A stretch of 64,000 nt of DNA, from assembly GCA_910592005.1 (NCBI GenBank), contig CAJVPP010000010.1, forward strand, positions 1-64,000, read 5' to 3'. The notes beneath the pieces were generated by a model that was not told the DNA's origin, did not search any database, and worked only from the letters and a program-made list of their open reading frames with translations. A program made the translations under genes and the position numbers. This DNA comes from Funneliformis mosseae (taxonomy: Eukaryota; Glomeromycota; Glomeromycetes; Glomerales; Glomeraceae). Below are positions 9,601-31,542 of the stretch, piece by piece (positions within the stretch are counted from its first letter, which is position 1; each line of letters starts with the position of its first letter).

Positions 9601-12600
9601 ATAAAATACCAAAACCAGCACCGGCAGCAACGGCTTTAGTAGATTTTAGCATCGAATTATTTGGATTAATATTCCCAACACAAAGTGCTCAGGTACAAGA
9701 AATTATTTTAGATCAATTGACCAAGTCGATAAAGCATCCTAAATTAGAAAAAAGTCCAGGAAGAAAAATGGCAGTACAAGTTAATATGGTAGTTGGATTA
9801 TTAGCGATATTTAAAAATGTAATGAACAAGAATAATATTATTAATAATGGAAGTAATAATGGTATCGCGGATAAAAGGATCGGAAATATTATAATGGATA
9901 TGTTACAAGAATCAATCACGCATCCGGACCCATATTTAAGGAATGCGGCAAGTGAGACTTTAGGAAGACTATTGAGTACCGTTGGCGGTAATTTGGTAAC
10001 CACGCAAATGCAATTGTTGGTAGATCAGGTGGTTAATAATAGAGAACCAGACACTCGAGCGGGTAGCGCATTAGCACTTGGATGTATTTATAGTCACGTG
10101 GGCGGAATGGCGGCTGGTGGTCATTTGAAAACATTGGTTGGTATATTATTATCATTAAGTAGTGATCCTCATCCCGTTGTACATTTTTGGGCATTGTATG
10201 CGTTAGCACAAATAATCGAATCTGCCGGATTAATGTTTTCGCAATATGTCAGCAGCACTCTTGGTATCATTGTCAAATTATATATGTCAGATACTCATGA
10301 ACCAGGTGGTGGAACTGTCGGAACTACAAACGTTGGATTAGGATTTTCTGCTTATCAACAATTTGGTAAAATTATATATGGATTAATTGGTACGTTAGGT
10401 CCTGAATTACAATCAAGCACCAAAATACGAAACTTATGTTTAAATTTAATGATCGAATTAAGAAATGATGAAGAAGAAATGGTGGTGGTGGAATCAATTA
10501 GATGTTTACAGCATTTCATTATGTTTGCCCAGCAATTTATTGATTTACCTAGATTGGTAGCCTTCTTGCAATTTCAATTAAGCAGTAAACATTTACCATT
10601 AAAAGAAGTTGCTGTTACATGTTTGTATCAATTGGTGCAAAAGAATGCTAAACATGTATTTGAAGTTTCCGTACCTGGTTTGGATAACCAATTATTTAGT
10701 TTATTGGATACTGATCCAACCATTGATGGCGTTAAAGATATTGTAAAAAGTTGGTTAAATCAAACGGCGATAGATAATCCTTCCATTTGGGTCGAGTTAT
10801 GTAGAAAAGTAATGTCGAAAACTGGTAGTGTTGCAAGTGCTGGCGCTCCCATCGACCCTCCTTCTTTGGATTTATCTAGTAATGATGATTTAGATGGGAT
10901 TAACAATGAAAATGATTTAAATGATGAAGATGGTGATGAAGAAGTCGAGAGTTTCGATTTTAGAGAAAGAGCTAACGCTAATAGGGAATTAGAAAAGAAT
11001 ACTAAATTAATTCAAGATTCTGTTCAAATTCCACCCAGGTGGCGTACTCAATTATTTGCGTTACAATGTTTACATCAAGTTGTTGAAGTTATTAGTAATT
11101 CTGGCGATAAAGATCATTTTGATCTATCTATTGCAAAGAAGAAGAGTGCAAACGGAAAAGATTATTTAGTATTAAGAGTACAAGAATTAATCAAAATGGC
11201 GTTTACTGCTAGTACCGCCGTTGTTGGTGAAATGAGATTAGAAGGATTGACCGTATTAAGAGATGTGATTGAGGTATATTAACTTTAAGAGAATTGTTTC
11301 TTGTTTAAAAGGAAATAATTTCAAAATTTCATTCATGATTATTATTTATTATTTATTATTATTATTATTAGAAATTTGCTGCAACACCTGATCCAGATTT
11401 TGTAGAAGCTGCTCTTTTGGAACAATATCAGGTAATGGAATCATACCTTTCTTTTCATGTAATGTCATCATTTTTGTTCTAACTCGTGCTTGGATTTCAT
11501 GTAATAGGCGCAAATAGGAGCGGCGCTTACTCCAGCGTTTACAGCTGAATCTTCACCAGAAATTTTGTCAGCTGCTGTAAAAGTATGTGCTGTATTTGTT
11601 GGTAGTGGTATCGTAAAAGAATTATATCGTATGGGTCGCATTTTAAAGTTATTAACTACCGCATTGGAAAATTGTAAAGGTAATCGCAGTTTTATTTATT
11701 TATTTATTTTATTTTTTTTTGTATTTCGTTATTCTTTTGACTATATTAATGATTTATTTTTGTCTGATTTGGATTAGATAATGCTAACGTTACTGCTGTT
11801 GGTGATATTAAAGATTTAAGCCCTCATGCTGCAATTATGGTTAAATTATCCGTATTAAATGCGTGGGCTGAATTACAAGTTTCTAGCATTAAACAATCTT
11901 ATTTAATACAAGTATTAGAACCGTATCCTTTCAAAAAAAAAAAAAAAAACAAAGTAAAATAAAAGTAAATTACTTAATTGTTAAACCTTAATTATATATA
12001 AACTTTTTATTATAGAAACTTGCCATTGTTATGTCCATTGTGGGTATTAGCATTAAAAGAGTATGCAAGGGTACAAATTGAACCTGACATAGCTGAAGCA
12101 CAAATTAATATAATCGGTAGCAGAGGAAATGGGGGGAATGTTGGCGGGTCATTTCTTTCACCTACACAGACTGAAGTATTTGATTCAATGTATAGTGGAT
12201 TAACAAGAGAAGTTATTCTTCCGGTATGTACTTTGAGTATTGTCTTTTAAAATATTTTAATGACATTAATTGTTTTTTCATGGAATATTAGTATTATAAT
12301 AGATCTTGGTTGACTATATTAGGAGCCGTTGCTAGTTTAGTGGATAGTGGCAATCCATTAATTATTAATGCATTAAATGGAAAAGACCTTTCATCAACTA
12401 CAAGTGATGTAAAAGATGAAGTACAACAGCATGATGAATTTACAAATTTTGGTAATGACGTATCGTCATTTGACGATTTCACGGAATTTACTATCACCAC
12501 CACCACCACCACCACCACTTCCACCGCAAACACAGCAAAATATTTTTTTATATTGTTTGGACTTTGTGTAGAAGCATTATCAAAGACATTTGGAGGTGGT

Positions 12601-14681
12601 AGAAGATCGAGCGGATTGATCGGTAGTGTTAATTCAAGTGGAGATAAATCTAATGTTACAAGTGACAACGATAAAGTTGTCAAAACTTGTATTAATGCTT
12701 TAAAAGCTTTTCTTAGACCTATTGTCGCTGGTAACATATTTTTAGAAAGAATAATATTTATTGAATTAATTAGCTTATTTGATAGGTTAGTTCTAACTGA
12801 AGGATTTGAAGTACAACATGATATTATACAAACTATCGCTAATATTATTAATGATTATGGGAGTACTTTTATCTGTGATGATTTATTAACTATGGAACAT
12901 AAAAGAAGGTAATGCCATAGGAAGATTTTTTTTTTTTAAAAAAAAAAAAAATTTAGAAAAATTGATTTTAATGGTTTGATTTATCTTGCAGTACAACAAT
13001 TAATGGGAATTTGGGGAACGATTCTACTATGAATAATGAAGAAGATAAATCACAAACCATATTATTTTACATGTTAAGATTACTTGTTAACATATTTTTT
13101 CAAAAAATTCCTTCGCTTTCTGCAAGACCCAATTCCCTAAGGATATTTAGACCCCCCCAAGGTAAGTCTTATATAAATGCCTTTTGTGGATTTTTATTTA
13201 ATTTTTTTTTTGATAAGATGATTTAAATACGAGATTTTTATTAGGAAATGCTAGAGGTCAAACTTCTCAACAAATTAATACTGTATTAAAAGCATCATTA
13301 GAAGCTTTTACTTCACTTATTACTATTATACCGATTAAATATAAAAATGATTTAATCGCAATAGCATTTTATGTATTTATATGTAAGTATCACTTCCTAA
13401 TGATAACAATAATAAAAAATATATATTGTATTCGTTTCACTAATTAAAACAATTAATTTTATAGCTTTAATTCAGGATCCAAAATTTCAACAAAATGATA
13501 TGACACAAAATGTATTGTATAATATAAAACTATTATGTAATGGAGGAAATTTAGAGAGTTTGTTTAATGATGAAAAAGATTTGAAAAAATTTTCTAAAAT
13601 TATCCATTCTTCCATTTGGTCTATTTTAACTAAAATTAATTCTGTATTAACGAGGTTAGTTTCAATAATAATAATTATAATATCGATAATTTTTAATCAT
13701 TTGATTAATTAAATCAATTTTTGTTTCTCATTTGGGTTGGATATATAGTGTGGATAAAGAATATAGTGAAGAAGAAGTATCAATAATAAAAAATTGTTTA
13801 TTGGCTTTGGTATTATTATTTACTTGTAATCCTAAATCCTGTTTAAGGTCTTTAGGATTGCAAAATGAATTTGTTAAGATATTAAAAAAAGGATTTCAAT
13901 CTAATAATACTACGGTAAGTGTACTTTAGTTCACGTGATTTTTTCTTTCGAGGAAAATGAATAATATTAATTCAAATCATTATCTTCGTAATATAGATTG
14001 CTGTAACTTCATTACAATGTATTCGTACTCTTATCTTACTTTCAACCAAATCGGAAAGCGACACGATTACAGTAATGGCTTCAACGGAGATCAGTTATAA
14101 TTGTATTAAGGCGTTAATACCACAATTAGTAATGTTTTTACAAAATATTAAAGACTCAAGGTTGGAACCAAGCGATGATAAACTTGATAAACTTGATATT
14201 GTTGAAGAAGTTATTAAAACCTTACTTATGGTAAACACTGTAGCCAACGAATCTCACAGTGAGTATTAGTGTCATTATATACATTTCATTTTTATTTTGT
14301 TAAATGAGATTCAACTAATCTGAAATACATCATGTCTATTATCTCGATGTAGAATCGCTTGTTATTGCAGTTACTTTACCAACATTAATTAATCTTTTAG
14401 AAGATGCACCATTAGAATCATTTAATCCACTTCCAAAATTACATTTGATTTCGGTTAAACATGTTCTTTCATTGGCTGCTACTAATCCATTAAATTTTAA
14501 AGAAGCGTTAGCCACTTTAACACCTCAGCTTAAATCTAAATTAGAAAATTCTATAAGGTTTAATGTATTACAAGAGCAACAACGGTTACAAAAAGAAAGA
14601 GAAAGGAAGGCCAATGAGCAATTAGAATTTAGCAAAGGACCTAGTATTAGTTTAAAAAATGACTTTTCCGGGTTTGCTTAA
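6636..14681 (+). CDS. HEATR5/Laa1-like HEAT-repeat trafficking protein, 16 exons
   Basis: Animal HEATR5 and yeast Laa1 are very large HEAT-repeat proteins of about 2,000-2,070 residues that act with AP-1 clathrin adaptors and in dynein-linked endosome traffic. Exons: 6636-6830, 6908-7125, 7195-7306, 7377-7532, 7605-11273, 11372-11431, 11508-11679, 11778-11922, 12016-12223, 12292-12908, 12992-13161, 13245-13382, 13465-13654, 13749-13914, 13997-14258, 14353-14681. All joins are GT-AG and keep frame, giving 6,807 bases (2,268 residues). Family landmarks: QLVARIFV near the start, VAWILIGSLMTLGPNFVK, HPVVHFWALYALAQI, IPPRWRTQLFALQCL, LPLLCPLWVLALKEY and a C-terminal SISLKNDF. Low-complexity inserts: Ser/Thr-rich (about 288-328), Asn-rich (872-897), acidic (1313-1345) and a Thr run near 12500. 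The charged tail LQEQQRLQKERERK may be a coiled coil. The start ATG at 6636 could instead be 6645. An AATAAA lies at 14748. The gene looks intact. Confidence 0.9.
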
Positions 14682-15551
14682 TTTAGAAAAAAGTATTTAA
14701 ATTAAATGATAGAATTAGAATTAGAATGAATATTAAACATCTAATTTAATAAAATATTGACTTTTAAAAGATTTAAAAATACGTGCCGAATAATATAAAT
14801 ATCTTCATATCATTAACCACTTTGTTCCCCAAAAAGGTACAATTCATTTACATAATCGGAATTGAATAATTACATGACCGGCAAAAAATTCAAAATATGT
14901 ACCATTTCAACTACTACTACTACTACTAAAAGTTCGTCCCCTCTTGTTCTCTTGTTTTAAGTTAAATTTTTTTAATTGGTTAAAAACGGAACTTTGACCG
15001 ATATAGTTACAGCCCTCCCACATGTAAATACGCACAGAGGAAATGATTAGCATTTCTTTGACGTAGTACGCGACAACGTCTCTTATTGGCGGTCCACAAT
15101 AAGATTGTCCTTGATTATGATAACTGATTTTGTGGTTATCAACATTCTTTGTAATACAAGAGATAATATAGCAGAAATAGATTAGATAAGGAGGTTTACC
15201 ATTACTCTATATCCTTTTAACTTTTTTTGTTTCTTTAAATCGATGTCTGAAGAAAGTATAATCTTTCATTTTTGATCGACAATAAATTCAAACTTTATTA
15301 CTCCAACTGTATCACAAATAGCCATGTTTTTTACTGTTTATAGAACAATCCGATCGGCAATTAATATTAAAATTTTTTTGATTGTCGACCTTCCATAATT
15401 GGATAGATCTATGGCACAAAGCAAATAATAATTTAAACTATAAATATCTTGAGATCCTGAACCGTTCTGCTTAATATTGAAAAAAATTTTATTTATCGGG
15501 AATTCTTTTGAGTTTGAAATTATTGAATTATAGGGAGTTAAATAGAGGAAA
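14682..15551. promoter_or_regulatory. Intergenic region and promoter of the RAP1GDS1-like gene
   Basis: Holds the 3' end signal of the upstream gene (AATAAA 14748-14753), a CTA microsatellite at about 14911-14928, and a reverse CCAAT box (ATTGG within CTTATTGGCGGTCC, about 15080-15095). No RNA gene or ORF. Confidence 0.4.
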
Positions 15552-16800
15552 ATGACCGAAATTTCTCAAAATGATGGTATGTATGATTCAATTTCTGAAA
15601 GTTATTATAAAGATCAATAATCATCGTCATCCTTATACATCCTTTTTGACTTGAAAATTTTTTTTTTTTTTTTAGTCAATCAAATCAAACAACTTGAAGA
15701 TCTCGTGAAACAACTCGCTTCAAACGGTAATTTAAAATGATCAAAAATTGTCTTTTTAAGCCATCTAAACCGATCATCATCTCTTTCTTAATAGTGTCGA
15801 ATTTATTGTTATATCTTCCAAATTTAATATCTGGTCTTGAATCATGTAAACATATTTTAATTGATGATGATTCAACGTTTGATGAACAAACTAAAGCTTA
15901 TGCCTGGGCACAGGTTGTAAAAATCGTTGAATTATTGGCAAATGCTGCAAAAATTGGTAAATGATTTATTTTTGTTTAAATATTTTCTAGTTTTTTATTA
16001 AGAATTAATTCTAATTATAAAAAAAAAAAAAAAAAGATAAATTGCGTGATCCTCTCGGTTTATCGGGAGCTTTCGAGTTAATTGTTACATTTATGAACGT
16101 CAACGCCAATGTAAATTATCCTAATGTTGATTATCAATGTCTTCGCGCACTTGCAAATTTCTGTATAACTCATGGTGAGATCAAATTCTTTATTCTGATG
16201 TTATCACAAACACTAATTTTACTGAGATCGATTTATTATAATTAGATAGAAATCGGCAACAATTTATAGATACCGGTGGTATTGATGTAGCGCTTAACTG
16301 TTTAAAACAACAAAAAGATTTAGAAACGATTCGCGCTTCTAGTGCGACTCTATTAAACGCTGGACTCAATTATGGTGTGTTTGTCATTTTTTAACTTTAT
16401 ATGTTAATTCCCTCCTTTAATAATGTTATAAATCAATCAAACATCATGTCTTTTTATTATAGATAATGTCAATGTTGGAATAGTAGATAAGGATGGTTTA
16501 AATACTTTGGCCGAAATCCTTGATCCTGAGGGTGTATTAAAAAAATACGAGAATGATATTGAAGTCGCAAGAACGTGTGTATATTTTGCCACTAGAGTTA
16601 TCATAAACCTCATCGGCACAGGTCCGCAAATGATTTCATTAATTATATGTTGATTTTTATTTATTTATGACCAACTTTCATAATTGACTTTTGTTCTTAT
16701 TCAGCTGAAGGAAAGAAGGATATTGGAAATACAAAGGTGATCACCTCTTTAGTTCACCTTTTAAAGTATGCATCTAGGGAAGGTATTAGTACAGTTGATG
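15552..16800 (+). pseudogene. RAP1GDS1-like ARM-repeat gene, 3'-truncated
   Basis: RAP1GDS1 (SmgGDS) is an armadillo-repeat chaperone/exchange factor for prenylated small GTPases. Exons 15552-15576, 15676-15726, 15795-15956, 16037-16174, 16246-16374, 16463-16621 and 16705-16800 join in frame, all introns being phase 1 with exons ending in G. They encode about 253 residues, against about 600 in the animal family. Visible ARM motifs: QCLRALANFCITHDRNRQQF, TGGIDVALNCL, ASSATLLNAGLNY and ARTCVYFATRVIINLIG. The start is MTEISQND, followed by a short coiled segment (NQIKQLEDLVKQL). After 16800 a good donor (GTAGGTTT) opens an intron, but both nearby acceptors (16811 and about 16876) lead at once to stops, and the next recognisable sequence is the pol gene of a gypsy element. 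The rest of the gene was not found in the window. One intron (from 16622) starts GTCCGC, an unusual donor. The remaining promoter and exons look undamaged, so a short product is possible. Confidence 0.75.
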
Positions 16801-16889
16801 GTAGGTTTCAGATTCCATGTTGTAGAGCTGTTAGTCACACTGCTAACACTTTCACTTTCACTCTCAATTTTTGTTAGAATAGTTGTGGA

Positions 16890-19340
16890 TTATTGTGGGA
16901 GAAGTTGAGATAGTGCGTCAGCGTTTGAATGTAATTTTTCCTTTTTGTATCGAATTTGATATAAAAACTCCATAATGCAAATGATCCATCTCATAAATTT
17001 ACGAGAGGGATCAGGTTTGTTAAAAAGCCATTGTAAAGCTGCGTGGTCAGTAATCAATTCAAATTGCTGATGTAAGAGATAAGGTCGGAAATGTTCTATT
17101 CCCCGTACAACGGTAAGACATTCCAATTCAGTTGGAGCATAATTTCTTTCAGCTTGACTTATACTTTGACTGGCATAAACTATGACACGTTCCTTATTGT
17201 TATTATCTAATTGTGCTAATACTGCGCTAAGACCTATATACGAGCCATCAGTGAAGAGTAAAAACTTTTGTTTAAAATCAGGATAAATCAAGATCGGTGC
17301 AGTTATCAAGCATATTTTCAGATGTTCAAAAGCCTTTTGTTGTGATTCTATTCATACGTAAAGTGTTTTCTTTCGTAATAATAAATGTAATAGTGCAGCA
17401 AATATCAAGAAGTCCTAAATAAATCTCCTATAATATGATGCTAGTCCTAGGAATCCTCTTAATTCAGTGATATTCTTTGGGATTGGAAAATTCTTAATTT
17501 TATCAATTTTGGAGGGATCTGGTAAGATTTCTTGTCCACTCACTATGTGTCCTAGAAATACTAATTCTAATTTTGCGAATTCACATTTATCTTTTCTGAG
17601 TTTGAGTCTAGCATTCTTCAATCATTTAAAAATAAACTGCAAGTGTTGTAAATGCGTGTCAAAAGTATCAGAAAAGATAATAATGTCGTCCAGATATACA
17701 GCTACGAACTGTCTAATTTCTTCTTTAAAAATCTTATTCATTAGGCGTTAAAAAGTCGCAGAGGCATTTGTTAACCCAAATGGCATTACTTTGAATTCAT
17801 AAAGTCCTTGACTAGTTATGAAAGCTGTTTTAGCTTGGTCATTTGGATCTATAGCGACCTGCCAATATCCACTAGCCAAATCTAATGTTGAGAAATATTT
17901 AGCTTTTCCAAACATATTAAGCAACTCATCAATTCGTGGTAAAGGATGTCTATCTCGTTGGGTGATACTATTGAGTTTCCGGTAATCAACACAAAATCGT
18001 AATTTTCTATTTTTCTTTCGAATGAAAATAACAGGTGAGGCCCAAGGGTTTTCAGATGGCTATATCAAATGGTATTTTAACATTCTATCAACTTCTTCCT
18101 TGATAAATTCCTGTTCTAACGGAGCTACTCAATATGCACATTATCGTATAGACATTGGATTTTCTACTGGTATATGATGTTTTTCAATTGTTGTATGTCC
18201 TAACTGTAATAAGTCTTCAGCGAATGCATCTCTATATTTATGTAAAAATTGCATAATTTGTTACCGTTGGAATTCATCGAGATGGTTATAGGTTATTCTA
18301 CTAGTAGGTGGTTCATCTGGAATATTTCGTAATAGTTACCAGTGATCCCATTCTCTTTTACAAAGTTGACAAGTTTTATCAATTTTATCTAATTTATTAT
18401 GGCACCAATATCGATTTCCCGGTCCTTGCCAATGATATTTCCACTTTACATTCTTGGGTAGTTGGACATTGAATTTTTGATTTAAACTTTCAAAGTATTG
18501 GGGTGAATATTTCTGTCCATCTACCAAAGTTTATTTTGGATTACTTTCAGCCAAAAGAATAGAGTCATTGTGGTCTTCCAATATCATATAATGTCGTTGA
18601 GCTATTAATTCTTCATCTTCATATTCTTCGTCAGAGAAATTTTTGATAATATCAACAGGTTGTTGAAAATGATCAAACTGTAGTTTTTTTCAACAAGTCA
18701 TAGGGATCTGGTATTCCTTATTATCCCAAAAAAATGTAAATTTTTGACAGTCCTAATAAAGCTGTTCTCGACATTTAGTGAGCCAATTATTTCCTGCTAC
18801 TATATAATAGTCGTTTGATTCTGTAATATCAACATCAATAGGAATTTCTATATCATTTATCTGCAAAGGAATTTTAGTTACTCGCCCTAATGGTTGCAAT
18901 CGTCTTTCTTGTATATTAATCATGTAATAGTAGAAACTGACTCAATTTTCGTCCTAAATGTTATAAGAAGGATTTAGACATTACGCTTCTAGCTGATCCT
19001 GAATCCAATATTAAATATATGGGTTTATTGTCAACAGTAGCATTACAATAAACTGCTTCTATGGTCTTTAGTAATTCTGAGGGATTTATTTTCTTAATGG
19101 TACTCTCACCCTCTGAAGGTACCGTTAATAGTTTAAAGACTGTGATGAAGAGGCAAACGCACTCTGGTTATTCATTAGTAGTGAGTTTGGAATAGAGAAA
19201 GTCATGGATGTTTGTGGTACTGGAGTAAAACCTGTATTATATATTGGGATAGTTTGTGATAGTGCAGCACATTGTCTATTGTTAAAGCAGGTAGTACATT
19301 GACATTTTCTCCAATATTCCCAACGGGATTATTTATATTC
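16890..19340 (-). pseudogene. Gypsy A pol: protease, reverse transcriptase, RNase H (decayed)
   Basis: Protease is seen at about 19000-19035 as LILDSGSARSVMSKSFL (DSG active site). It is followed by a Cys/His cluster YWCHNKLDKIDKTCQLC at about 18350-18410. Reverse transcriptase runs from about 18100 to 17420, with NPWASPVIFIRKKN, LDLASGYWQVAIDP, VMPFGLTNA and the catalytic VYLDDIIIFS at about 17685-17710. RNase H (17309-16890) has LFTDGSYIGLSAVL, YASQSISQAERNY and ITDHAALQWL, and stops just after the usual HSNADALSQL end. Several stops interrupt the frame. No integrase follows. The short frames on the opposite strand are shadows. Confidence 0.9.
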
Positions 19341-19549
19341 TTAGTTAGGTATACATATCCCTAGTGTTCAAATTGGCTACAGTGTGGGCAAGGTCCTCTT
19401 GGCGGATTATTATAATTCCTGAAAATATATCTCTTTTGGTGGCAACTATGGCAGGTGATCCCTGTATTAGTCCTATTATTATACTGATTGTTCCCACTAT
19501 TATTTTAATTTCCTGGATTATTTCTTTGTTTAAGTCACGAGCGATATGT

Positions 19550-20892
19550 CCAGGTCGTCCACAGTTGTAGCAACTTTGATTATTTTGATTACTATTATTA
19601 GTATTATTACTATTATTATTATTTCTCTAATTATTATTTGTATTGGCTGGATGTGTGTTGATATTTTGGATGTGTTGTGTAGTATTTGTGGTTATTAGTA
19701 ATTGTTTGACTTCTTTTAACAATTTTTCATTATTTTAGTCGATAATTTGTTGAATGTCTGGGATAGCAATAGAATCCTCATTGATGTCATTATCCTTTTG
19801 ATTCAAATATGATTTACTTAAAGAATATCCAGAGAGAGTACTATCTTTAGATAATATGGCTTCGATAGCTTGTATTCGATCAATTGCTTCTTCCAAGTCA
19901 TGAGGTGCAGCTGCAGCAATAGCGGTATGAAACTCTAAGCAAAGCCCCTGTAGAAACTGTTCAATCTTTTCATCTTCAGATGTATTGTAATTAGGGTCTA
20001 ATTTGAGATATAATGACTTAACGTCAGTGGCATAATCCTCAACTGACTATCCAGGATGCTGCTTATATCATTGAAAGGCTGAGCGCCATTGTGTCCTTCG
20101 GTGCATTGTACAGTAATGCTTTAAAAAATGATTGTTGCTGATCAGTTGAATTATCCCAGTATCGTAAATCTTTTTCATTTTTAGTTTTATTATACCAAGT
20201 AAGAGCTGATCCTTTCAGAAATTATGGGACTAATGTAAGGCGTCGTTTGTCAGAAATTCCATTCGCATCTCCAGCATTGTTATACCTTTCTAATCAATTA
20301 CAAGGGTCCTGATTTCTACCCTTAAAAGTTGGCAAATCTACAAATTTCGCCTTCCGTTGTCCACCAAATCTGACAGTTTTAAAGACAGTTTGTAACCCTT
20401 TCATCATTTGGAAGAAGTTTCGTTCCTCATTGTCCCTAGCATTGTCAGTATTAAAGGGATCTTCACTGTCATCCTTTGAGTCACTATCTTCTGAACTAGA
20501 ACTAGAGGAAGAAGAAGAACTATTATAATAAGAAGGAGAGTGACAGTTCTTGACCTTACTAGTTTTCTTAAACCTAAGTTTTTTGCCTTTAATTTGATCC
20601 TTAGAGTGGTGACTCTTTGGTTTAGAATGCAGCGGATTGAGACTTTTGTGTTTCGAGTCACCTTTCTTACTTTCTGATTTTGATTCAGATAATCCTTTAG
20701 TGTTCCTATAAGAACTAAAGGTTAAGATATTGCTTTCTGAAAGCGGCGGATTGGATTTTCCACTTGGAGTGGTGTCGATAAATAAAGTATCATCAGACAC
20801 ATATGCTGATCAAGAAGGCGGATTTTTCTCTTCAGAAGTTGATGTGACTGTTGTACTGCTTCCGCGAGTTACTGGTTCCTTAAGTCCCATTT
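19550..20892 (-). pseudogene. Gypsy A gag (decayed)
   Basis: Starts with MGLKEPVTRGSS at 20892. After a TGA near 20810 it continues as a 168-codon frame (20800-20294) that is Ser/Lys-rich with a polyserine tract and an acidic patch. A retrotransposon-gag capsid region follows with stops (GSALTWYNKTKNEKDL at about 20150-20215). A zinc knuckle near 19580-19540 reads CYNCGRPGHIARD but lacks the fourth ligand Cys. Stops and frameshifts prevent a full Gag. Confidence 0.8.
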
Positions 20893-21380
20893 TATATTTA
20901 TTCTGGTTTAATACTGGAAGGATATATGATAAGCTAATATATTTAATTGTTTGTAAAGAAAAAGCAGTAGTGTTGTGGTGTACTTGAATAACTAGTTGAA
21001 GGGCTTGAGCAAGAGTATACAAAGGTTATTTGTTGTAGATGAAAGCTTGAAAAGTTTGATTATAAAAATATCATTGAAATTCAACAGTAGTAGCAGATTA
21101 AGCTATTCAAAAGTTTTTAATAGTTTTTCCCGTATATTATCGTGCGTCTAAGATAAATTTAGTCCACTCAAAGAAAGATCAAAATGAGGTTGTTAAAGTC
21201 AATGGTAGAGGTGCTGGATGGTAGATAATGCACAAAGTATCTAGTGTTAAGATAGTTGTGACTATATTACGTTCTCTCTGAAGGTGTTGTTGCTGGTGTT
21301 TTCTTTGGTAATTAAATATGTCTTCAAATGAACTCATGTAGTGTTTCTTATGTGTTATTACTGCACCAATTAGGAGAAGA

Positions 21381-21402
21381 TAGTCCTGTCATTATCGCCA
21401 AA
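21381..21402 (-). promoter_or_regulatory. Primer-binding site of gypsy A
   Basis: Immediately inside the LTR end (CGTTAACA) the minus strand reads TTTGGCGATAATGACAGGAC. The TGG that pairs with the CCA end of a tRNA is in the expected place. The tRNA partner was not identified. Confidence 0.6.
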
Positions 21403-21977
21403 TGTTAACGTGTAATTCTTGCGAACTACAACTGTTAGACGGAGTGTTTGAGCAGTTTATTCTTTTTAATTGAGCAGTAATCTTTCAACAGTTTACAAGC
21501 TTTAACTCAGATGATTTATCAAAGTATTTATATTATTACAACAAGTTTTGATTCAACAGATTGCCAGTAAATTGTATTTATAAATAATGTGTTTATTCAT
21601 GAGTAAAATAATGATAAAGATAAAGAAAAAAAAAGTAAAAGAAAATAAAGAAGAAAAATAAGAAAAAAAAGAAACGAAATACTAAAGCTAAAAGGTAACG
21701 CAGTAGGCCAGTTGCCTCTAAAACTACTAAAACTATCTTGCTAAATTCCAATCTGTCTCCCTTTTATATGAACTAAAAAGCTACTTATTTATATAAAATA
21801 AAATACATAGAAAAATATAACTAACATGTCTAATATATCAACTATATCTAATATATCAACTATATTAACTATGTCAACTATATCAAATATGTCAAATATG
21901 TCAAATATGTCTGACATATCATATATATCAATTATGTCAAATCGGTCAATCTTTTGCACCACTTAGGCTGCGTCACA
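21403..21977 (-). repeat. 5' LTR of gypsy A
   Basis: Minus-strand limits TGTGACGC ... CGTTAACA, about 575 bp. The 3' end is firm because it is shared with 1-263 and followed by the primer-binding site; the 5' end is inferred from the TGT...ACA pattern. A TATA box (minus strand TTTATATAAATAAG) lies at about 21784-21797, and a 9-bp tandem repeat lies just upstream of it in U3. Confidence 0.8.
21826..21951. repeat. 9-bp minisatellite in LTR U3 (14 units)
   Basis: Fourteen consecutive 9-base units of the type ATATCAACT / ATGTCAAAT without phase slips. They lie 30-160 bases upstream of the LTR TATA box on the minus strand, the position of enhancer repeats in many retrotransposons. Confidence 0.85.
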
Positions 21978-22462
21978 TTTATCTGTTCACACTAATATGT
22001 AACCTACGCTTCCTTTCCTCTTTTCTATTCTATAGTTTCTTTTGGGTTTTATAGTTTTAATATATTTTTTAGAATAGTCTTTCCTTGTTTTATCTTTTTC
22101 ATATTTTTGATTTTCATATATCTTGAATTTGTATTTCTCAATTATCTAATAAAATTTTGCACATCATTACGCTTTTGCTTTTTTAAATCTATAAAGTTAT
22201 CTAATAAACTAAATATTAAATAAAATAACTAAAATAAAATAAAAATAAAAAAAAAATAAAATCTGCTACTTTAACTACGCTAACTATATCACTAACTATC
22301 TTCTTTTTAAAAAATTGAGCTACTGCGAAATTAGAATGGTTGACATAATGACTGATATTCAGCCATTTTCAACCTTTTAATTAGAAATAGTGTTGTAAAC
22401 TTTGATTGATAAATTTGAGAAATATTATTTTCAAAAATAAAATAAGTTCTTTTTGCTGCTCT
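21978..22462. other. Junction between gypsy A and gypsy B
   Basis: AT-rich, with a weakly protein-like minus-strand stretch rich in Lys (about 22010-22150). It may include the 3' LTR of element B or older debris. No terminal repeat could be matched to a second copy. Confidence 0.35.
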
Positions 22463-24030
22463 TTAGTAATAAGGTGTAATTATTTTTCTAATAATATCTT
22501 TTGGAATTTCATGTGAATCAATTAAAATTCCTAAATAGTATGTATAGGTTAAAGTAGGAATACGCTGATGTAATCTTACAGATCTAACCATCCGTCGATA
22601 AGTTGATTTTAATTTTAATTCTGAATAATCATCATCATTATATGGGGGTAGAATCACTAAAATATCCTAAGGGTCAACTTCTAAAATGTCAAGACTTATA
22701 AGATCATATGGAGTAACCATTTTTGAATTTTCTTCTTGAATTTTTAAACTTAAGAAGAGTGGCCTTTATATAAGAATCTGAGGTTCTAAAATATTTTCAT
22801 AATACAATTTAAGTTAATCACTATGTATTATATCTTTAACCAATCTTTCATCCATATTTCTTAATTTGTAATTTTTGCCTCACACTTCATGTATGAAATA
22901 AGGTCTCATCTAACGTTCCTCTAATTTTGCAGAAAAATTAGTTTTTAACCATATGCGTTCTACTAATACTTTGTCACCTATTTTAAATTTCTCAAATATT
23001 ATGCTAATATCATGTTGATCCTTTTGTTTTTGTTAATTAACCTTGATTCGGTTAAGAGCAGTTTGTCGATCATCTTCTAATTGGTTGATTATCTTAAATA
23101 ATCTTTCTATTAATGCATCCTTAATATTTTTGTCATCACTCAATTCTGTTGGAATTTTTAATTCAATTAGTAGCTTTGCTTGTCTTCCATAAAGAAAGTA
23201 AAAAGGTGTATAACTAGTAGTATTATGCTTCATTATGTGGTAAGCAAATAAAACTGATTCTACATATTCGTCTCATTCTTTTTCTTTGTCAGCAACTAAT
23301 TTAGCAAGACATTTACTAATTATTCTATTGAATCTTTTAACTATACCATTTGTTTGTAGCCTATATGCAGAAGTAAGTCGATGTTTTGTTTGAAATTTTT
23401 CACAAAATGTATCCACTACTTTATTCAAGAAAAAAGTTGCTCTATCAGATAGAAGTTCTTCTGAAACATTATGTATGCAAATAATTTCATTAAAAATAAA
23501 CTTCGCAACTGTTTCTGATTTGATATCTGGTATTAATTTAGCTTCAGATCATTTTGTAAAGTAGTCTATGGCAATAATTATATAATGATTTTCTTGAAAA
23601 GTTCTAAGTAATGATCCTTTTATATCAATTCCAACTCTATGAAAGGGTGCTTTTACTTTGATTGGTTGCAAAGGTTCTTTTCTCTTAGATGATCCTCTTT
23701 TCTGACAATTGTTACATCGCTGAATATAACTTCTGATATCATCAAACATCTGGGATCAGTAATATCTTTCCTTTACTTTTTCATAAGTAGTATCAATTTC
23801 AAGGTGAACTCCTATCATATCTTTGTGAAAATTATAAAAATAATTTCCATTTGTTCATGCAAAATCACTCTCTTATCTCCATCTCTATTTTGTTTGTATT
23901 GTAAGTTGTTTTTCATTATATATTGGGTTAAATCCTTTTGCAGTTTAATCCATTGAGAGTTGTTCAAATCTGGTGGGTATGTAAGAGTTTTCAAATATTG
24001 GGTTAGATTTTCATAAAATTCATTATCCAT
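22463..24030 (-). pseudogene. Gypsy B integrase and C-terminal tail (decayed)
   Basis: The zinc-binding domain ends in RCNNCQKRGSSKRKEPL at about 23715-23680. The DDE core shows VGIDIKGSLLRTF (first Asp), LLSDRATFFLNKVVDTF (second Asp) and SAYRLQTNGIVKRFN. In this last motif the catalytic Glu (normally NGLVERFN) is Lys, a GAA-to-AAA change, so integrase would be inactive. Downstream are KHNTTSYTPFYFLYGRQA and the GDKVLVERIWLKTNF region that normally connects substrate to tail. The last open piece (22657-22463) includes YTYYLGILIDSHEIPKDI. Several stops interrupt it. Confidence 0.85.
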
Positions 24031-24099
24031 TATTGAAAAATCTAGAGTTTGGTAGTGATGATATATTTTCCTGTGTTAGATCATGATCATATAGGTTTA

Positions 24100-25330
24100 T
24101 CTGAGATAAGGCATCCGCATTTTCATAGTGTTTTTCTTTTCTATATTTTACCTTATAGCTATATTCTTATAAGATTAGTCTTCATCTCATTATCCTTTTA
24201 TTTTCAGTTAATTTTGATTCAGCATTTAATAACCATTGTAATGCTATATGGTCAGTGATAATTGTAAATCTACTTCCAAAGATGTAATGTCTAAAATATT
24301 TTACTGCCTACACAATAGCTAAACATTCTTGTTCTATTGTGTTATAATTCTTTTCAGCTGAATTCAGAGTTCTACTAGCATATATGATCACATGCTCTTT
24401 TCCATCATCTCCTTTTTAAGATAATACTATGCCTAAACTAATCTGAGAAGCGTCAGTATAAAGAATGAAAGGTTTATTAAAATCTGGATACATGAAAATA
24501 GGTGCTGTTATCAATTTTTCTTTCAATATATCAAACACTCTTTACCTTTTATCATTCTATATATAACTTTTCTCTTTTTCTATCAGTTTATACAATGGAG
24601 CTGATATCTTTGAAAAATCCTTGATGAACCTTTAATAGTAAGAAGCTAATCCTAGAAAAGCTCTTAATTCTATTAAATTTCTTGGTCTAGGATAATTGAT
24701 AACCTTTTCAATTTTTGAAGGATCAGGTTGAATTCCTTCCTCATTAATCACATGTTTTAAGAACTTTATTTCATTGGTACAAAAGTGACATTTGTCTGAT
24801 TAATTCTCAAATTAGCTTTTCTAATTTGATCAAAAACTAATTGTAAGTGTTGTAAATATTCCTGAAATGTTTTTGAGTGAATGTTTAGATCATCCATATA
24901 AACCTTAACAAACTTTTGTTTCTTTTTTTTGAAAAATAGTATCCATTGTTCTTTGAAAAGTAACTGGAGCATTACATAATCCAAATAGCATTACTGTGAA
25001 CACATACAATCCTTCGCTAGTAATGAAAGCAGTTTTCTCTACATCTTCTGATCGAATTTTTATTTGCCAAAACCCTGAAAATAGATCTAAAGATGTGAAC
25101 CAACAAGAGCCTTGAAGTGAGTCCAATAACTCATCTATTCATGGTAATGGATAATTATTTTTCCTCGTGATTATGTTAAGTTCTTTGTAGTTAATACACA
25201 TCCACATCTAACTATTTTTCTTTTTGACTAAAACTATAGGTGCAGACCAAGGACTATTAGATAGTCGAATTATTCCTTATTCTAACATTTCATCTATTTC
25301 TAATGCTATCCATTCCTTTTCTTTTGGAGA
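24100..25330 (-). pseudogene. Gypsy B reverse transcriptase / RNase H (decayed)
   Basis: Reverse transcriptase motifs: FTSLDLFSGFWQIKI, VMLFGLCNAPVTFQRTMD and VKVYMDDLNIHSKTF (catalytic YMDD, about 24890-24910). The frame shifts at the T-run around 24923-24931, splitting the domain into two overlapping frames. RNase H shows [50 protein letters not shown] and HYENADALSQ. Several stops are present. Confidence 0.85.
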
Positions 25331-25760
25331 TATTGCATATGGTCTTTTTTTTATAGAATGCACATCTTCTGTGATGATTGCATGTTAAGAAATATTGGTT
25401 TGTGTTAATTCTGACTTCTCATTGGCAAATAAATCTTCATTCTTCTCTAGTAATTGTTATAGTTACTGCTGCTGATCTTTTGTTAAATTTCCTATTAGTG
25501 TTTCTTTTTCTTTTGATATTTTTATCAGTTTATCGCTTGCTTCAATTTATGCTTTATTAATTGAAACAGCTATTTAATATTTCTATAGGCCCTGATGTAA
25601 TACTTTACAATATGAATAATCTTCTTCTTTTGATAATATTTTACACAAGCATCGTCCTGGTCCTTTCCAATACTTATTAGTCCTAAGGAGTTTAAGTTTG
25701 CTGAATTCTAAAAATTCAGCTGATTGTTGATGGTTGTCATATTGTTGTCAAAAGATACGT

Positions 25761-26324
25761 TCAGATAGTGTTAAGGTTTTTATATATTTCTTCAATTTCT
25801 AAATCATCATATTTTTCTTCAACAAAATCTATAAGAATAAATACTTTTGGATTGATCTTGGAAAAGTACATGATTGGAACAATATCAGTTTCATTATTTT
25901 GTTTGATTATCATAATTTGTTTACTTGTATCAATAATAGCCTTTGCTTGTATAGTTATCCAATCATTTCCAAGTAGAACATTATATCTAAAGGATTCAGT
26001 AACTATGATTTCAAACTTTCCTATTTTTATACTTACTTTTAACATTTTTCCTAAAGGTGCTATCCTTGCTTCTATAATACTAATTATTTGTATATTTGTA
26101 GATACTTCAATATCCTTATGCACAGAATCTAAGAAACTTTTAATGATGATATATTTCACAGCTCCTGTATCAATCATCACATTAATTTTCCTTTCAAAAA
26201 CTTCAGCTTCAGCAAAATATGCATCCTGGGGTTTATGTTCCTCCCATTGAGCTTGAGCGATCATTCTAGATATCTCTAAATTTTCTAATATCTTTTGAAA
26301 ATATTTAACATGTATTAAAGTCAT
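25761..26324 (-). pseudogene. Gypsy B aspartic protease domain
   Basis: An open frame of 187 codons. The retropepsin active site reads VMIDTGAVKYIIIKSFL (DTG), and the second hallmark LLGNDWITI lies near residue 118. This piece is still open, but the element around it is broken, so it is listed as part of a dead polyprotein. It is separated from the Nudix frame by a stop and a short gap. Confidence 0.8.
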
Positions 26325-26372
26325 TTCTTTTCTTTTACATTTTCCTTCATATTCTTCAAAGGTATTTAGGAT

Positions 26373-26987
26373 CTATGAACTTTGCTTATCCAGTTCAGTG
26401 TTTCTGAGGGTTGTGTTCATATTTACTTTGGTGATATAGATGTCGCAATTAAATCCAGAATCATTAAAAATAAGTTTTGGTATATCATTTTTAATAATTA
26501 ATCCTATTTTTTCTTCTGTTTCTCTAATAACTGCTTCGATTGAATACTCATTTTCTTCAATTTTTCCACCAGGAACTTGCCAGAGGTTATATATTTTCTT
26601 ATGTTTGTTGATCCTTTTTGATAGGAATATTCCAACATCATTATAGATAATATTCATCACATAGCCTAGGTTATGAGGCTTGTTAGATTTGTTATTTTTA
26701 GATATAATTGGCTTCCTGTTATCCTGTTGCTTTAAAATCTTTTGAACTTTAAGATTCTTTTTTCTTGTAATCATATAACTATGATGGTCAACATCATTAA
26801 AATTACAAACTAAACATGGAGTATCATATCCTTGGAAAATGTGCCAATACTCAACTAACTCATCATCATCTGGGAGCTTGTTAATAATAATATATTCATT
26901 CTCATAATCTTTCTTTTTAAATTCTCTAATTTCTTCTAATAGATTATTCCATTTTATTTGCTTTCTTAGAGGGTTTGAATTATTCAC
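26373..26987 (-). pseudogene. Nudix hydrolase domain inside gypsy B
   Basis: A 204-codon open frame. Residues about 108-190 form a Nudix fold: GYVMNIIYNDVGIFLSKR, then NLWQVPGGKIEENE and the box tail AVIRETEEKIGL (residues 139-163). The box follows G-x5-E-x7-RE-x2-E-x-x-G but has Lys where the second Glu of the EE pair should be (residue 160). This is a GAA-to-AAA type change at a metal ligand, so this copy is probably inactive. Residues 56-72 hold a Cys/His cluster (CLVCNFNDVDHH) that could bind zinc. Nudix enzymes hydrolyse nucleoside diphosphates linked to another group, for example oxidised dNTPs or caps. It lies between a Gag-type zinc knuckle and the protease, on the same strand, so it belongs to the element rather than being a host gene. 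Which substrate it used cannot be told. Confidence 0.8.
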
Positions 26988-27139
26988 ACTCTTATTTCCT
27001 AAAGGTGTGTCTACTAGTTTAAATGATTGATAGAGGAATTTATTTGCTGATTTTCTTCTGAGGATTGCCTGTTATTTTGCTAGTTATTTCTATTTCTATT
27101 ATTGTAATTACCATTTTCATTTTAATTGTTATTTTGACT

Positions 27140-27187
27140 TGATCAATAATTCTTTGCTAAATGACTAGTTTTATTATAGTTATAGCA
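27140..27187 (-). pseudogene. Gag zinc-knuckle remnant of gypsy B
   Basis: The minus strand reads ICYNYNKTSHLAKN, a CCHC knuckle in which the second Cys has become Tyr. It is out of frame with the Nudix frame, with stops between. Upstream (27215-27290) is a Lys-rich run from a polypyrimidine tract. Confidence 0.6.
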
Positions 27188-27290
27188 TATCTTTGTATTA
27201 TTATTATTGTTATTACTACTATTATTTCTTTTTCTTTTCTTTTACTTTTACTTTTTTTTTTTCTTTTTTTTTTTTTTTTTCTATTATTGA

Positions 27291-30200
27291 TTTAAATATT
27301 ACTTACTCACTTTCATTTTTTAAATTTTATAGTTTTGATTTTTTTAGTTTTTCTTTATAAAATATTTTTTAAGTTTTTTTTTTATAAATAAGAATTCTAT
27401 GTAAAAAATATCAGTATTCTTCCTTTTGTGTTTGGTTAGGTTTTAGATAGAATTCTTTATGTAGATTAGAAATTAATCATGTTATATTAAAATGCTTTTT
27501 CTTCTTCTTTATTAATAGTAAAATTTATTTTTTATGTGATAAGTGAGTCTACCAAAGAGGATAATAATGGCAGTTAATTCAAACAATTTAAAATATAGTA
27601 ATAAAAGGTAATGATAGTTTAAAATTATTATTTTTTAAATATTATATCTTAATTCTGTTTGTTTATTTTTAAATTTAAATAAACTTATCATGGTATTGCA
27701 TTATTAAACTAAAAAAAAAAGTTTTAAAATACTGTCAAAAGAAAATACTATAAATTTTAGATAAAATTTTTTTTCAAAAATATTATTTAATACTTTTTAC
27801 ATTATAATTAGTTAAAATACAAGACATAAAAACATATTGTTAAAATTTCTTCTCTGTAATTTTATCAATTATTATACTGAATACTATAATATCAAATAAT
27901 TTGTTTTAAATTTTTTCTTGAATATTATTTAATATTGTCTCTAAAAATTTATATTAAAAAATAAAATTTATATATCTAATCATATCATCAAAAGATTTGA
28001 TAAATCTAATTTCTTTATTAATTCAATAATAGAAGATAAAAGTCTGAAAGGCAAATTTTTTTTTGTAAAAAAATAAACAGTTCACATTATATTAATAATA
28101 TAATTTGTATTTATATTAAAAGAAACAAGCTTTTTTTGTAATAATTTTATTTATATTTTTATACTTTCTAATTTTTCTATATCATTATGATCTTTAATAT
28201 TTATATATTTTTTAATTGCTGATTTTTTAAAATATTTATCATTTTTTCTGTAATCAACTTATTTTTTTCTTATACCATATATATAAAGTATAATACATTT
28301 TTTTTTTATTTTCATTATAATGTAATCAAGATAATTTAATTAACTATTTAAGTTTAAATATTTTACTATTATTTATATAAAATATTTAATATTTTTGTTA
28401 GAATTATCTTCATATTAAAAATTGATCATTTTGAAATAAATTTTTTTACATTTAAATTCATATTGTAATAATAATATTATAAAATAAGATAAAAAATTAA
28501 AAAAAAAAATTATTATAATTTATTTGTGATACAAAAAATAACTGAAAATATTTTTCAATTTTAATTATATATTCTAGTTAAAAAACTAATTTTTAGAATT
28601 TTTATATTTCAAATTTATTTTTCACACTATTTTAAATAAATTTTTTTTTAGTTCATATTTTTTAAATAAATATTGTTGATAATTTTAAAATCTTTAAAAT
28701 TAGATTTTAAAAATAATTCAAATCATAATAAAATTACATATTTTCTTATTGTTACATTTAAAAATAATATGCAAAATGATTTGTAAAAATTAAAAAAAAA
28801 AAATGATTAATTTTGTATAATAGTAAAAGGATTTGCATTTGTATTACTAAACTAATTAGATAAATAATCTGCATTTCTTATTTTTCAAATTTAATAATTA
28901 TCATTTAATTTATTTATTTTATTTAAACTATTTTATCCATTTTTATTATTTTATTCATTTATATTATTTTATATATTTTATCTATTTTCTTTACTTTATT
29001 TATTTTATTGTTATTAATAAGTATTTTTATATAAATAGGATTAGTTTTATAGGAAATATAGAGAAAGTAGAACTTGTCTTGTAGTAAATTTTTAAGGAAT
29101 AAATTGTTTAGTACAGATGTGCTAATAGTAGTAGTACTAGTCTTTTATTTGTTAAATAATTAATTGCACGTATTACACCCACTTGTCTCATTTATTTCTA
29201 TTTTTTATATTTTGTATCTGTATTTTTAATCTTTTGTGTGAAGGAAACCTTCTGCTAAACTGTAATATTGCAGGTGATTTGCTCATGATCTAAAGAATTA
29301 ACATAACATTATAATGAATAATACAATTAGTTAAAATTAATTTTATTTTTAATAGATTTATTAATTACTTGTTTAATATTATTTATTGTGTTAATTCTAA
29401 TTTTTTAAAAGAGTATTTTAATATTACTAAAATATTTATCTGGTAAAAATTTGTGTGTTCTAGAACTATAAAATTTACTTTAATAATTTTATATATTCCT
29501 ATTATTATTAATCAAGATCAGAAAAATAAAGAAATATTATTCTTATTTTAATATATATAATTATTATAAGTAACTTTTAAATATTATTTTTTTTATTAAA
29601 TTTATTCAATATATTAAAAATAAAATTGATTATTATATTAACATCTTTTTTTACAATTTTATGTAAAAATTCATTTTTACTAATAATATAATTTAACTGT
29701 TATACAAGAGATTATTTCTTTTATATGAGCTATAAAAACAGTTTTGAAATATATTTGACTAATTTGCTGAAGTGAAAAAAAGTCAAAATATTTTATATTA
29801 AATTATAATAAATATAAGTAATATTTATATATATTACTAATTATAATATTATAATTATATTAATTTTGTTCCTTTTTTACTTTATCTTTAATTTTAATCC
29901 TATTTGAATTTTTTTATCAAAATTTTTTATATATTAAATTTTTTTAATATTTTATAAATATTATATAAATCTGTAATTAACGTTATAAATTTATATGTAG
30001 AGTAAAATTCTTTTAAAATTTAACAAAACTTTTATATAATATATAGATGTATATTTATCTAATTCTTTATATATTATAATAAAATTTCTATAAATTTTAA
30101 TAAAATAATTGTTAAAGAGTCTGTTTATATATAATGATTTAGTGAGAGAAATCTATAAATATTTGTATAATTATTAATAAAATTATAAACTTTTGTAGTT

Positions 30201-30395
30201 AATTTTTGATTTAAAATAATATGAAGATAATACTTTAAAAAAATTTTTATATTTTCATAATATCATTCTATTAATCTTTAAATTAATAAATAATGTTTAA
30301 TAACTTTTAAAGTTTTATTTTTAATACTAATAAAATAAGATTTTTAAATTAGAAAATATTAGATTAAATTAATAATTAAAAAGTTTTTTTCTTAA
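27291..30395. other. AT-rich gene desert, first part
   Basis: No open frame or RNA gene. The only less AT-rich piece is about 29040-29300, which could be an LTR remnant, but no partner copy was found. Confidence 0.5.
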
Positions 30396-30520
30396 TTAAA
30401 GATGTTCTCTATAATTATTTTTAAATTTCAATTGAGTTATAACTTAATTGCATCATAAAAAAATTTAATTGTATTATAAGTTATAAATTAATTGCGTTAT
30501 TTTTTTAATTGCGATGATTA
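30396..30520. mobile_element. Short MITE copy (AAAGATRGTC family)
   Basis: Starts AAAGATGTTCTCTATAATT and contains TTTCAATTGAGTTATAACTT, matching 49016-49143 over its length. The right end is blurred by an ATT run. No coding capacity. Confidence 0.6.
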
Positions 30521-31542
30521 TTATTATTATTATTAAAGAAAGCTAATAATTATCTTATTAAAACAAATTTCAATTATTTTTTAATAAACTTTTAAATTTT
30601 AAATATCTTACAAGAAAAGCTTTAAATCTAACTTCTTTAAATATTTTTTTTTTATTATAAGTATAGTTAGATAAAACAAAAAATTGTTTTAAATTATAAG
30701 TAATTTTTTGTATAAATTTATTATTTTTATATTATTCTAAAATAATATTGTCAAAAGAAAAAATAAATTTTTTTTTTTATTTTTTTTATTATTAATATTA
30801 TTAAAGTTAAATATATTTATATAAAATAAAAAATATGTATTATATTCAAATATAAATTGATTTTCATATTACTTTTTATTCTATGTAATTTTTATTAAAT
30901 TTTTAATTTCCATTTTTTTAAAAAAATAAATATTTCTTAAAGGTTTCTTTTTACTAATTATAACTTAAATATTAAAGAAGAATTAATTAAAAATTTAAAA
31001 TAGATATGATATATATAATAGAATATTAATAGAATTTTGAAATTAGATTAAAAATTAGAAATTAAAAATAAGAAATTAGAAATAAGACAAGTAAAAAATT
31101 GAAAATTAGAAGAATAATCTAAAGAATTAATTAATATTAAATTATTATAAGTAGGAATAGAATTTTATCTTATAAAAATAGATATTATTAGTTTAGATAA
31201 TAAAATTATATAATATTTACTATAGGATTAATAAAGAATTTTAGATATAAAAAAATATATTTGATATTATATTTACTTACTAATTTAATTATTATATTAT
31301 ATTATTTAAAAATAATAATAATAAATAAAATAAATTATTAATTAGAATAATATAAAAAAGAAAAATATAAAGAAATTTTTAAAAGAAAATTATATAAAAA
31401 ATAAAGAAAGGATTAAAAATAATCAGACAAAAATCTAAAATAAAATTAAAAAAAAATAAAAATAAAGAAATATATTATAAGATAAAAATTATAAAAAAAA
31501 AAATAATGAAGAAAAATAATAAAAAACAATAATAAAAAATAA
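30521..31542. other. AT-rich non-coding stretch
   Basis: Simple A/T sequence with purine-rich AAAATTAGAAATTAAAAATA-like repeats at about 31040-31110. Nothing else seen. Confidence 0.5.

Follow-up and report, generated by a model that had tools for sequence, protein, structure and literature searches.

Why should a Nudix hydrolase domain lie within the polyprotein of a retrotransposon? The question is raised by a decayed Ty3/gypsy element on the minus strand of a 64,000-nucleotide stretch from the arbuscular mycorrhizal (AM) fungus Funneliformis mosseae (assembly GCA_910592005.1, contig CAJVPP010000010.1, positions 1 to 64,000), the whole of which is here called the window. An earlier note, made from the sequence alone, had read there the order CCHC zinc knuckle, Nudix domain, aspartic protease (PR), reverse transcriptase (RT), RNase H and integrase (IN); all of these were mapped in that order, and the Nudix assignment passed its check against Pfam, PF00293 matching the window frame with 40.9 bits (E 2.5e-10, cut-off 21.1). 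The observation of a Nudix domain in a gypsy copy is confirmed. Nudix enzymes act on a broad range of substrates. From the domain's position, recurrence, fusion to retroelement proteins, selection, catalytic-residue conservation and predicted fold we read it, at a little better than even confidence, as an integral and recurrently exchanged module of AM-fungal Ty3/gypsy elements that would act as a MutT/NUDT15-type pyrophosphatase of (deoxy)nucleoside triphosphates, (d)NTPs, in the service of reverse transcription.

Recurrence of the domain in retroelements

With the window's Nudix frame as query, the genome (82 Mb, 4154 contigs) gave 44 matches, 30 of which were taken as loci; two came from one element, leaving 29 distinct loci. 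Gag, knuckle, protease, Nudix and RT were mapped by tblastn in these 29 and in a control locus (14 matches lie outside the set), and at every one of the 29 another retroelement domain lies on the same strand within 1.5 kb flanks of the Nudix domain. The order (Gag, knuckle)-protease-Nudix-RT is found at 23 loci, with the protease upstream in 21 and RT downstream in 21, and the order (Gag)-Nudix-protease-RT at six, the window included, with the protease downstream in all six and Gag upstream in five. The placement between Gag and protease first described from the window thus stands for that copy and five further loci, but not as the sole site, the domain occupying at least two and probably three places. 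The host-gene control (L003, on contig C590), a frame that by eye looks like an ADP-sugar pyrophosphatase, gave zero matches to any mapped retroelement or Nudix query. It had been foreseen that other copies might lack the domain, or that the frame might turn up as a host gene with introns and flanks of its own. Neither is the case: other copies carry it, although other gypsy lineages in the genome are Nudix-less, and all 29 mapped loci have a retroelement context. This supports the domain as a stable part of Ty3/gypsy lineages rather than a host gene fallen into one of them.

When the same genome was searched with PF00293 exon by exon, a procedure biased against intron-bearing host genes, 16 of the 20 matches coincided, on comparison of the two tables, with matches to the window Nudix frame. 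Fifteen of these sit in loci mapped as retroelements, the remaining one being C1824, and NUDIX counts in mycorrhizal genomes need rereading in this light.

The fusion is also found at the protein level in other species. A profile of eight sequences (A1), scored against the 7997 candidates sharing most words in a database of 5.8 billion proteins, found 72 proteins at E <= 1e-3, the named fungal hits coming from Rhizophagus clarus, R. irregularis, R. diaphanus, Funneliformis mosseae and F. geosporum; a protein of F. caledonium (P0005) belongs to the same element, its gene model being without a Pfam match. Some of the A1 hits carry the automatic name '8-oxo-dGTP diphosphatase'. Single polypeptides in which Nudix and the protease family RVP_2 both exceed their Pfam cut-offs (P0003, P0006, P0007, P0008, P0013, P0018 and P0019) come from R. 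clarus, R. irregularis and metagenomic or unnamed sources, so that the search for Nudix joined to retropepsin proposed in the earlier note had a positive outcome. PF00293 scores 50.1 bits on P0003 (cut-off 21.1), and P0008 has two zinc-knuckle stretches in addition; in the same Pfam scans, P0025 is left out by a protease below the cut-off and P0055 by giving no protease match. These in-frame fusions in other species, together with the 29 loci, bear out the attribution of the domain to gypsy lineages: it is co-encoded with the protease and, in several cases, with Gag knuckles or RT, and it is maintained.

A profile of the Nudix region only (A3) gave 231 hits at E <= 1, among them 120 listed. 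One frame of P0078 holds a stretch weakly like the end of a protease, the Nudix domain and the start of RT (its bin is named Ignavibacteriaceae, and we think it a misplaced eukaryotic contig), P0125 has the end of a Nudix domain followed by RT, and P0103 (six members) has PF00293 after RNase H, a third position for the module. Further down, P0133 (5e-13) is followed by P0134 (7e-10) and then P0135 (2e-8, named Oscillospiraceae), both of which look like ordinary bacterial Nudix proteins. The public name of P0039, terminal uridylyltransferase 4, is misleading.

A copy bounded by long terminal repeats (LTRs) was found for the PR-Nudix-RT arrangement. On contig C643, two direct repeats, each about 480 bases long and 90.0% identical to each other, stand 7310 bases apart; the frames between them, read by eye, are those of Gag, knuckle, protease, Nudix, RT, RNase H and integrase. 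The stretches retrieved from C3932 and C1778 (L040, L041) showed no comparable repeats. Against the Nudix-less contig C3774, which has a long uninterrupted pol frame (1481 aa open), the protease and acidic linker of C643 align over 115 columns (34%, E 1e-21) through residue 110; the C643 Nudix domain starts at residue 111, and the alignment resumes after it for 33 columns (48%, E 5e-5). C3774 has 32 residues of its own between the two blocks and is not bare at this site, which at the level of aligned proteins may be taken as an approximate empty site for the Nudix domain. The alignment of P0078 to C3774 starts at residue 178 of P0078, close to where its Nudix domain finishes, and runs to the end of that protein (E 9e-36).

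Conservation, predicted fold and candidate role

The catalytic residues of the Nudix box (R/E/E/E) are complete in 78 of 89 aligned database rows, and their columns are conserved at 94-98% against 62% for the median column; P0001, P0002, P0073 and rows with fewer than 75 filled columns or more than eight X were dropped from this set, a few of whose members (P0044, P0080 and P0086) have no known retroelement parts. In the window the box, GKIEENEYSIEAVIRETEEKIGL (26499..26567, minus strand), has Lys at the position of the second Glu in the EE pair, so the substitution of a metal-binding Glu read earlier (RETEEKIGL) is real, and catalytic potential would lie, as the earlier note had it, with the lineage rather than with this copy.

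Selection was judged against nulls in which the same kinds of change were kept and their positions moved, with 1000 nulls per pair; the pairs share sequences and so are not independent. For the Nudix region, the ratio of nonsynonymous to synonymous change (pN/pS) was so low in nine of 15 pairs that at most five of the 1000 nulls equalled it, a departure from neutrality in the direction of the purifying selection that had been proposed for checking; between the window and C1778 it was 0.20 against a null mean of 0.45, with none of the 1000 as low. At most ten of 1000 nulls were as low in eight of 15 RT pairs and three of 15 protease pairs.

An AlphaFold2 model of P0003 built with 30 sequences has a mean predicted local distance difference test (pLDDT) score of 81.4 and confident blocks at about residues 19-152 and 166-290. 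Foldseek matched its Nudix half best to NUDT15 (E 1.4e-8) and its protease half best to Ddi1 retropepsins, and a Nudix fold is accordingly predicted; the window's own frame yielded a poor model (mean pLDDT 56.2). A profile search of PDB sequences was led by 8-oxo-dGTPase/MutT entries (E 3e-9), and a segment EPEK..W after the Nudix box aligns with plant NUDX1. Together, sequence and predicted fold point to MutT/NUDT15/NUDX1-like enzymes.

If this assignment is right, the Nudix enzyme would be made within the Gag-Pol or Pol polyprotein, may be released by the element protease and may be carried in or near the particle, where oxidised or otherwise miscoding (d)NTPs would be hydrolysed during reverse transcription. 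Such cleaning of the pool would parallel the removal of dUTP by retroelement dUTPases, which offer the strongest analogy for the proposed role. In the portions of the two papers drawn on here, dUTPases are described from retroviruses and from bdelloid, basidiomycete and ascomycete LTR elements (PMC5408684, PMC2864245); their site varies, in fungal gypsy elements being either terminus of Pol or the stretch from PR to RT (PMC2864245), with a position between RT and IN also described (PMC5408684, PMC2864245), and they were apparently acquired independently (PMC2864245). The Nudix domain would resemble them as a nucleotide-pool-type enzyme built into a polyprotein at comparable, variable positions, whereas dUTPase belongs to an unrelated family acting on dUTP; no dUTPase family was among the Pfam matches at E <= 0.1 for the window frame and the scanned proteins, and the word Nudix has no occurrence in the main text of either paper. 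The retrotransposon Nudix may correspond to the dUTPase that some retroviruses carry. From MutT, NUDT15 (MTH2) and plant NUDX1 it differs in being fused to retroelement proteins and in a C-terminal signature of its own, W..F....Y...a....TTPTH..Y.

Several points weigh against this assignment. Pyrophosphatase activity, packaging and proteolytic release are predictions. Dcp2 comes first by VIA-align Z score (17.1), tied within 1 unit with NUDX1 (16.9), MutT with 8-oxo-dGMP (16.6) and NUDT15 (16.2), and the fold therefore does not fix the substrate; matches to NCBIfam equivalogs lie far below curated cut-offs (43.5 of 97.9 bits for the MutT model TIGR00586), and the domain is therefore not filed as MutT. 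The copies of the F. mosseae genome are decayed, with R/E/E/E retained in ten of 18, and six of the 15 Nudix pairs do not differ significantly from the neutral null. The RT of the window gives no sign of selection against C1778 (pN/pS 0.73, 236 of 1000 nulls as low), a result given little weight because of the many stops and frame changes in that stretch. Finally, most scored gypsy RTs in the genome have no nearby Nudix match, and the domain is therefore dispensable for gypsy elements in general. As a separate observation, own-genome copies have lost catalytic residues chiefly through E-to-K and R-to-Q changes, the pattern that G-to-A (C-to-T) transitions would give, hinting at methylation-linked decay.

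Among the alternatives, the one that fares best, though we think it improbable, is Dcp2- or RppH-like processing of RNA 5' ends, in which the enzyme would act on the cap or triphosphate ends of element or host RNA, the payoff being selection of the genome for packaging or suppression of host translation. The structural tie with Dcp2 is not matched in sequence, Dcp2 rows reaching 12-15% identity as against 20-25% for the MutT, NUDX1 and NUDT15 rows, and the PDB profile search led by 8-oxo-dGTPases had no Dcp2 among the best 60 of 81 rows. A hydrolase of signalling nucleotides or alarmones, which would remove diadenosine polyphosphates (ApnA), ADP-ribose or related nucleotides and so blunt a host response, has a lesser chance. 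The breadth of Nudix substrates, a matter of general knowledge, allows for it, and docking in new fungal subfamilies, in the part of that study consulted, favoured Ap3A and Ap4A (PMC12210691); the case is one of docking with no tie to element replication, and the closest profiles are MutT-like, Ap4A hydrolases being weaker (E 4e-5 to 0.003 against 3e-9). Slightly less credible again is a passenger or purely structural domain without catalysis, for which the decayed state of the copies in this genome, the 11 of 89 database rows that miss at least one of R/E/E/E and the many gypsy lineages without the domain may be cited; the catalytic columns are nevertheless among the best conserved of the domain, and the share of Nudix pairs well under the neutral null is comparable to that of RT. 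The idea that a host Nudix gene landed by chance in a single dead element, or that the arrangement is an artefact of assembly, has nothing in its favour beyond the decay of the window copy and is already refuted, being ruled out by the 44 matches, by the fixed order and retroelement context at 29 of 29 loci, and by the same fusion in another genus and in metagenomes.

Carriers, trees and origin

Within 3.5 kb upstream and on the same strand, a Nudix match accompanies 25 of the best 136 RT matches (taken from 573 candidates), on 23 contigs, a minimum count, as decayed domains escape such a search. An RT tree was built from 30 rows picked from 42 aligned; in it the 13 carriers fall into three groups, the label needs three changes, and a single carrier clade is rejected by the approximately unbiased test (p-AU 0.0059), run after a FastTree had been seen and with the carrier group defined solely by Nudix presence; the module has therefore been gained or exchanged more than once, or repeatedly lost. 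Carriers and non-carriers do not intermix at shallow depth in the RT trees. The contigs of the 17 non-carriers are absent from the window-Nudix matches, except C10, which is matched by its other copy. The Nudix tree (45 rows picked from 123, 127 columns) has 20 of 42 inner branches open and an outgroup that is not one side of a branch, and three outgroup rows were placed inside in an earlier FastTree. Single-clade tests gave p = 0.057 for the PR-Nudix-RT rows, p = 0.325 for the CCHC-Nudix-PR rows and p = 0.153 for all 39 rows outside the MutT outgroup, so the number and direction of captures are not decidable from this tree, nor their direction from that of RT.

Some standalone proteins stand close to the elements. 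P0044 and P0080 are Nudix proteins with an F-box-like N-terminus (below the Pfam cut-off in P0044, no F-box match in P0080) that group with the element protein P0078 in the Nudix tree (92/92, not starred); domestication from an element, or descent from a donor, is possible. Scans for the source of the domain outside retroelements gave little: in IMG/VR, P0003 had nine pattern matches and none confirmed, and alignment A3 had 429 pattern stretches with 189 confirmed (best-segment identity 26-53% among 80 listed), which are probably phage Nudix genes of the ordinary kind. In the prokaryote genome scan all 16 pattern matches failed confirmation, and PHROGs returned general Nudix families and, more weakly, portal and unknown families.

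The sole relevant published statement that we found, in the part of the paper available to us, concerns fungal NUDIX subfamily K, nine of whose 14 proteins have 'diverse retrotransposon related domains' (Pasterny et al. 2025, PMC12210691). That notice, so far as the portion goes, is a table entry and one sentence, and has no element context, positions or interpretation. Within the Glomeromycota the subfamily is reported from the Diversisporales only, with 25% bacteria also given in the table; our named hits are from Rhizophagus and Funneliformis. The same portion discusses Glomeromycota NUDIX abundance as gene duplication, possibly for DNA repair or lipid metabolism, and NUDIX is listed among the differentially abundant domains of AM fungi in the part used of PMC7550596. 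The word Nudix does not occur in the main text of a paper on R. irregularis transposable elements (PMC11075540), and the parts seen of PMC6338049 and PMC3985635 describe no such element. Judged by titles and the starts of abstracts among the papers listed, with most subscription papers and all bioRxiv preprints outside the search, no description of a Nudix-bearing gypsy element was found.

Retrotransposon-borne domains may help explain the seeming richness of AM fungi in Nudix genes. We lean, if only modestly, towards a retro-Nudix family of pyrophosphatases circulating among AM-fungal Ty3/gypsy elements in at least two and probably three polyprotein places, which would be a second, non-homologous solution to pool cleaning beside dUTPase; much of the NUDIX abundance reported would consist of this mobile module, and some standalone proteins, such as the F-box-like pair, may be domesticated forms of it.

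The window copy and its neighbours

The window copy resembles standard Ty3/gypsy elements (Metaviridae), with which its relatives share LTRs (C643), Gag with knuckles, the PR-RT-RNase H-IN order and a DTG protease; the additional Nudix domain and an additional Cys/His cluster set them apart. That order on one strand is found in the window and, in relatives, in frames read by eye. All features of the copy lie on the minus strand. An open frame of 232 codons (26376..27071) takes in the Cys/His stretch together with most of the Nudix domain, and over 99% of its length this frame is 100% identical to the predicted F. mosseae protein P0001 (5885_t:CDS:2). The Nudix domain itself (26253..26663, PF00293) is 74% identical to P0006 (E 2e-68) and continues past an in-frame stop (26373..26375) that separates its frame from that of the protease; the part beyond the stop is common to relatives. 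The gene model of P0001 omits the stretch holding this stop, public models splicing around element stops.

Downstream follow a retropepsin-type aspartic protease (25872..26240, VMIDTGAV) with Pfam matches under the cut-off, RT (24707..25246), interrupted by 12 stops plus frame changes, RNase H (24095..24541), and the zinc-binding part and catalytic core of integrase (23153..23836), its Pfam rve match also under the cut-off. Upstream, the Gag zinc knuckle (27128..27229) has the position claimed for it but not an intact motif: CYNYNKTSHLAKNY is decayed, keeps two of four ligands and lies in another frame than Nudix. Homology to C1778, the nearest relative found of this copy (85% DNA identity), ends at 27227, and Gag and the 5' LTR are therefore absent, a 5' truncation. 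No convincing LTR pair was found in 14000-31000, nor any in a self-comparison of 12000-31000.

The Cys/His stretch (CLVCNFNDVDHH..., 26724..26858) is 69% identical to P0006 (E 2e-21) and probably represents a zinc-binding cluster in decay. P0006 is the closest relative found that has no interruption; there CLICDFDDVDHH comes first, then zinc-knuckle-like motifs, with one zf-CCHC match just above the Pfam cut-off, and then the Nudix domain. A loose pattern, C...HH...C..C, occurs in the RNase H-integrase spacer of both C643 (Nudix) and C3774 (Nudix-less), upstream of Nudix in C3932 and P0053, and downstream in P0102, a Nudix protein with 141 member sequences whose Cys/His motif lies past the domain; the pattern is present in just two of 173 database proteins and is absent from the window and P0006. 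By locus, its sites are L039 (minus; RNase H-integrase spacer), L043 and L040, beside the proteins P0102 and P0053. From the spacing of its Cys and His residues, the window stretch may equal this element. The extra module of the earlier note is thus present, but, with a similar motif in a Nudix-less relative, has no apparent tie to Nudix; these lineages may possess it as a zinc-binding element independent of the Nudix module.

Just downstream lies a neighbouring Ty3/gypsy copy (16902..20809, minus strand) without a Nudix match, which served as comparator and is one of the RT-tree non-carriers. Gag, knuckle, protease, RT and RNase H were mapped in it, and it too is decayed and belongs to another gypsy lineage.
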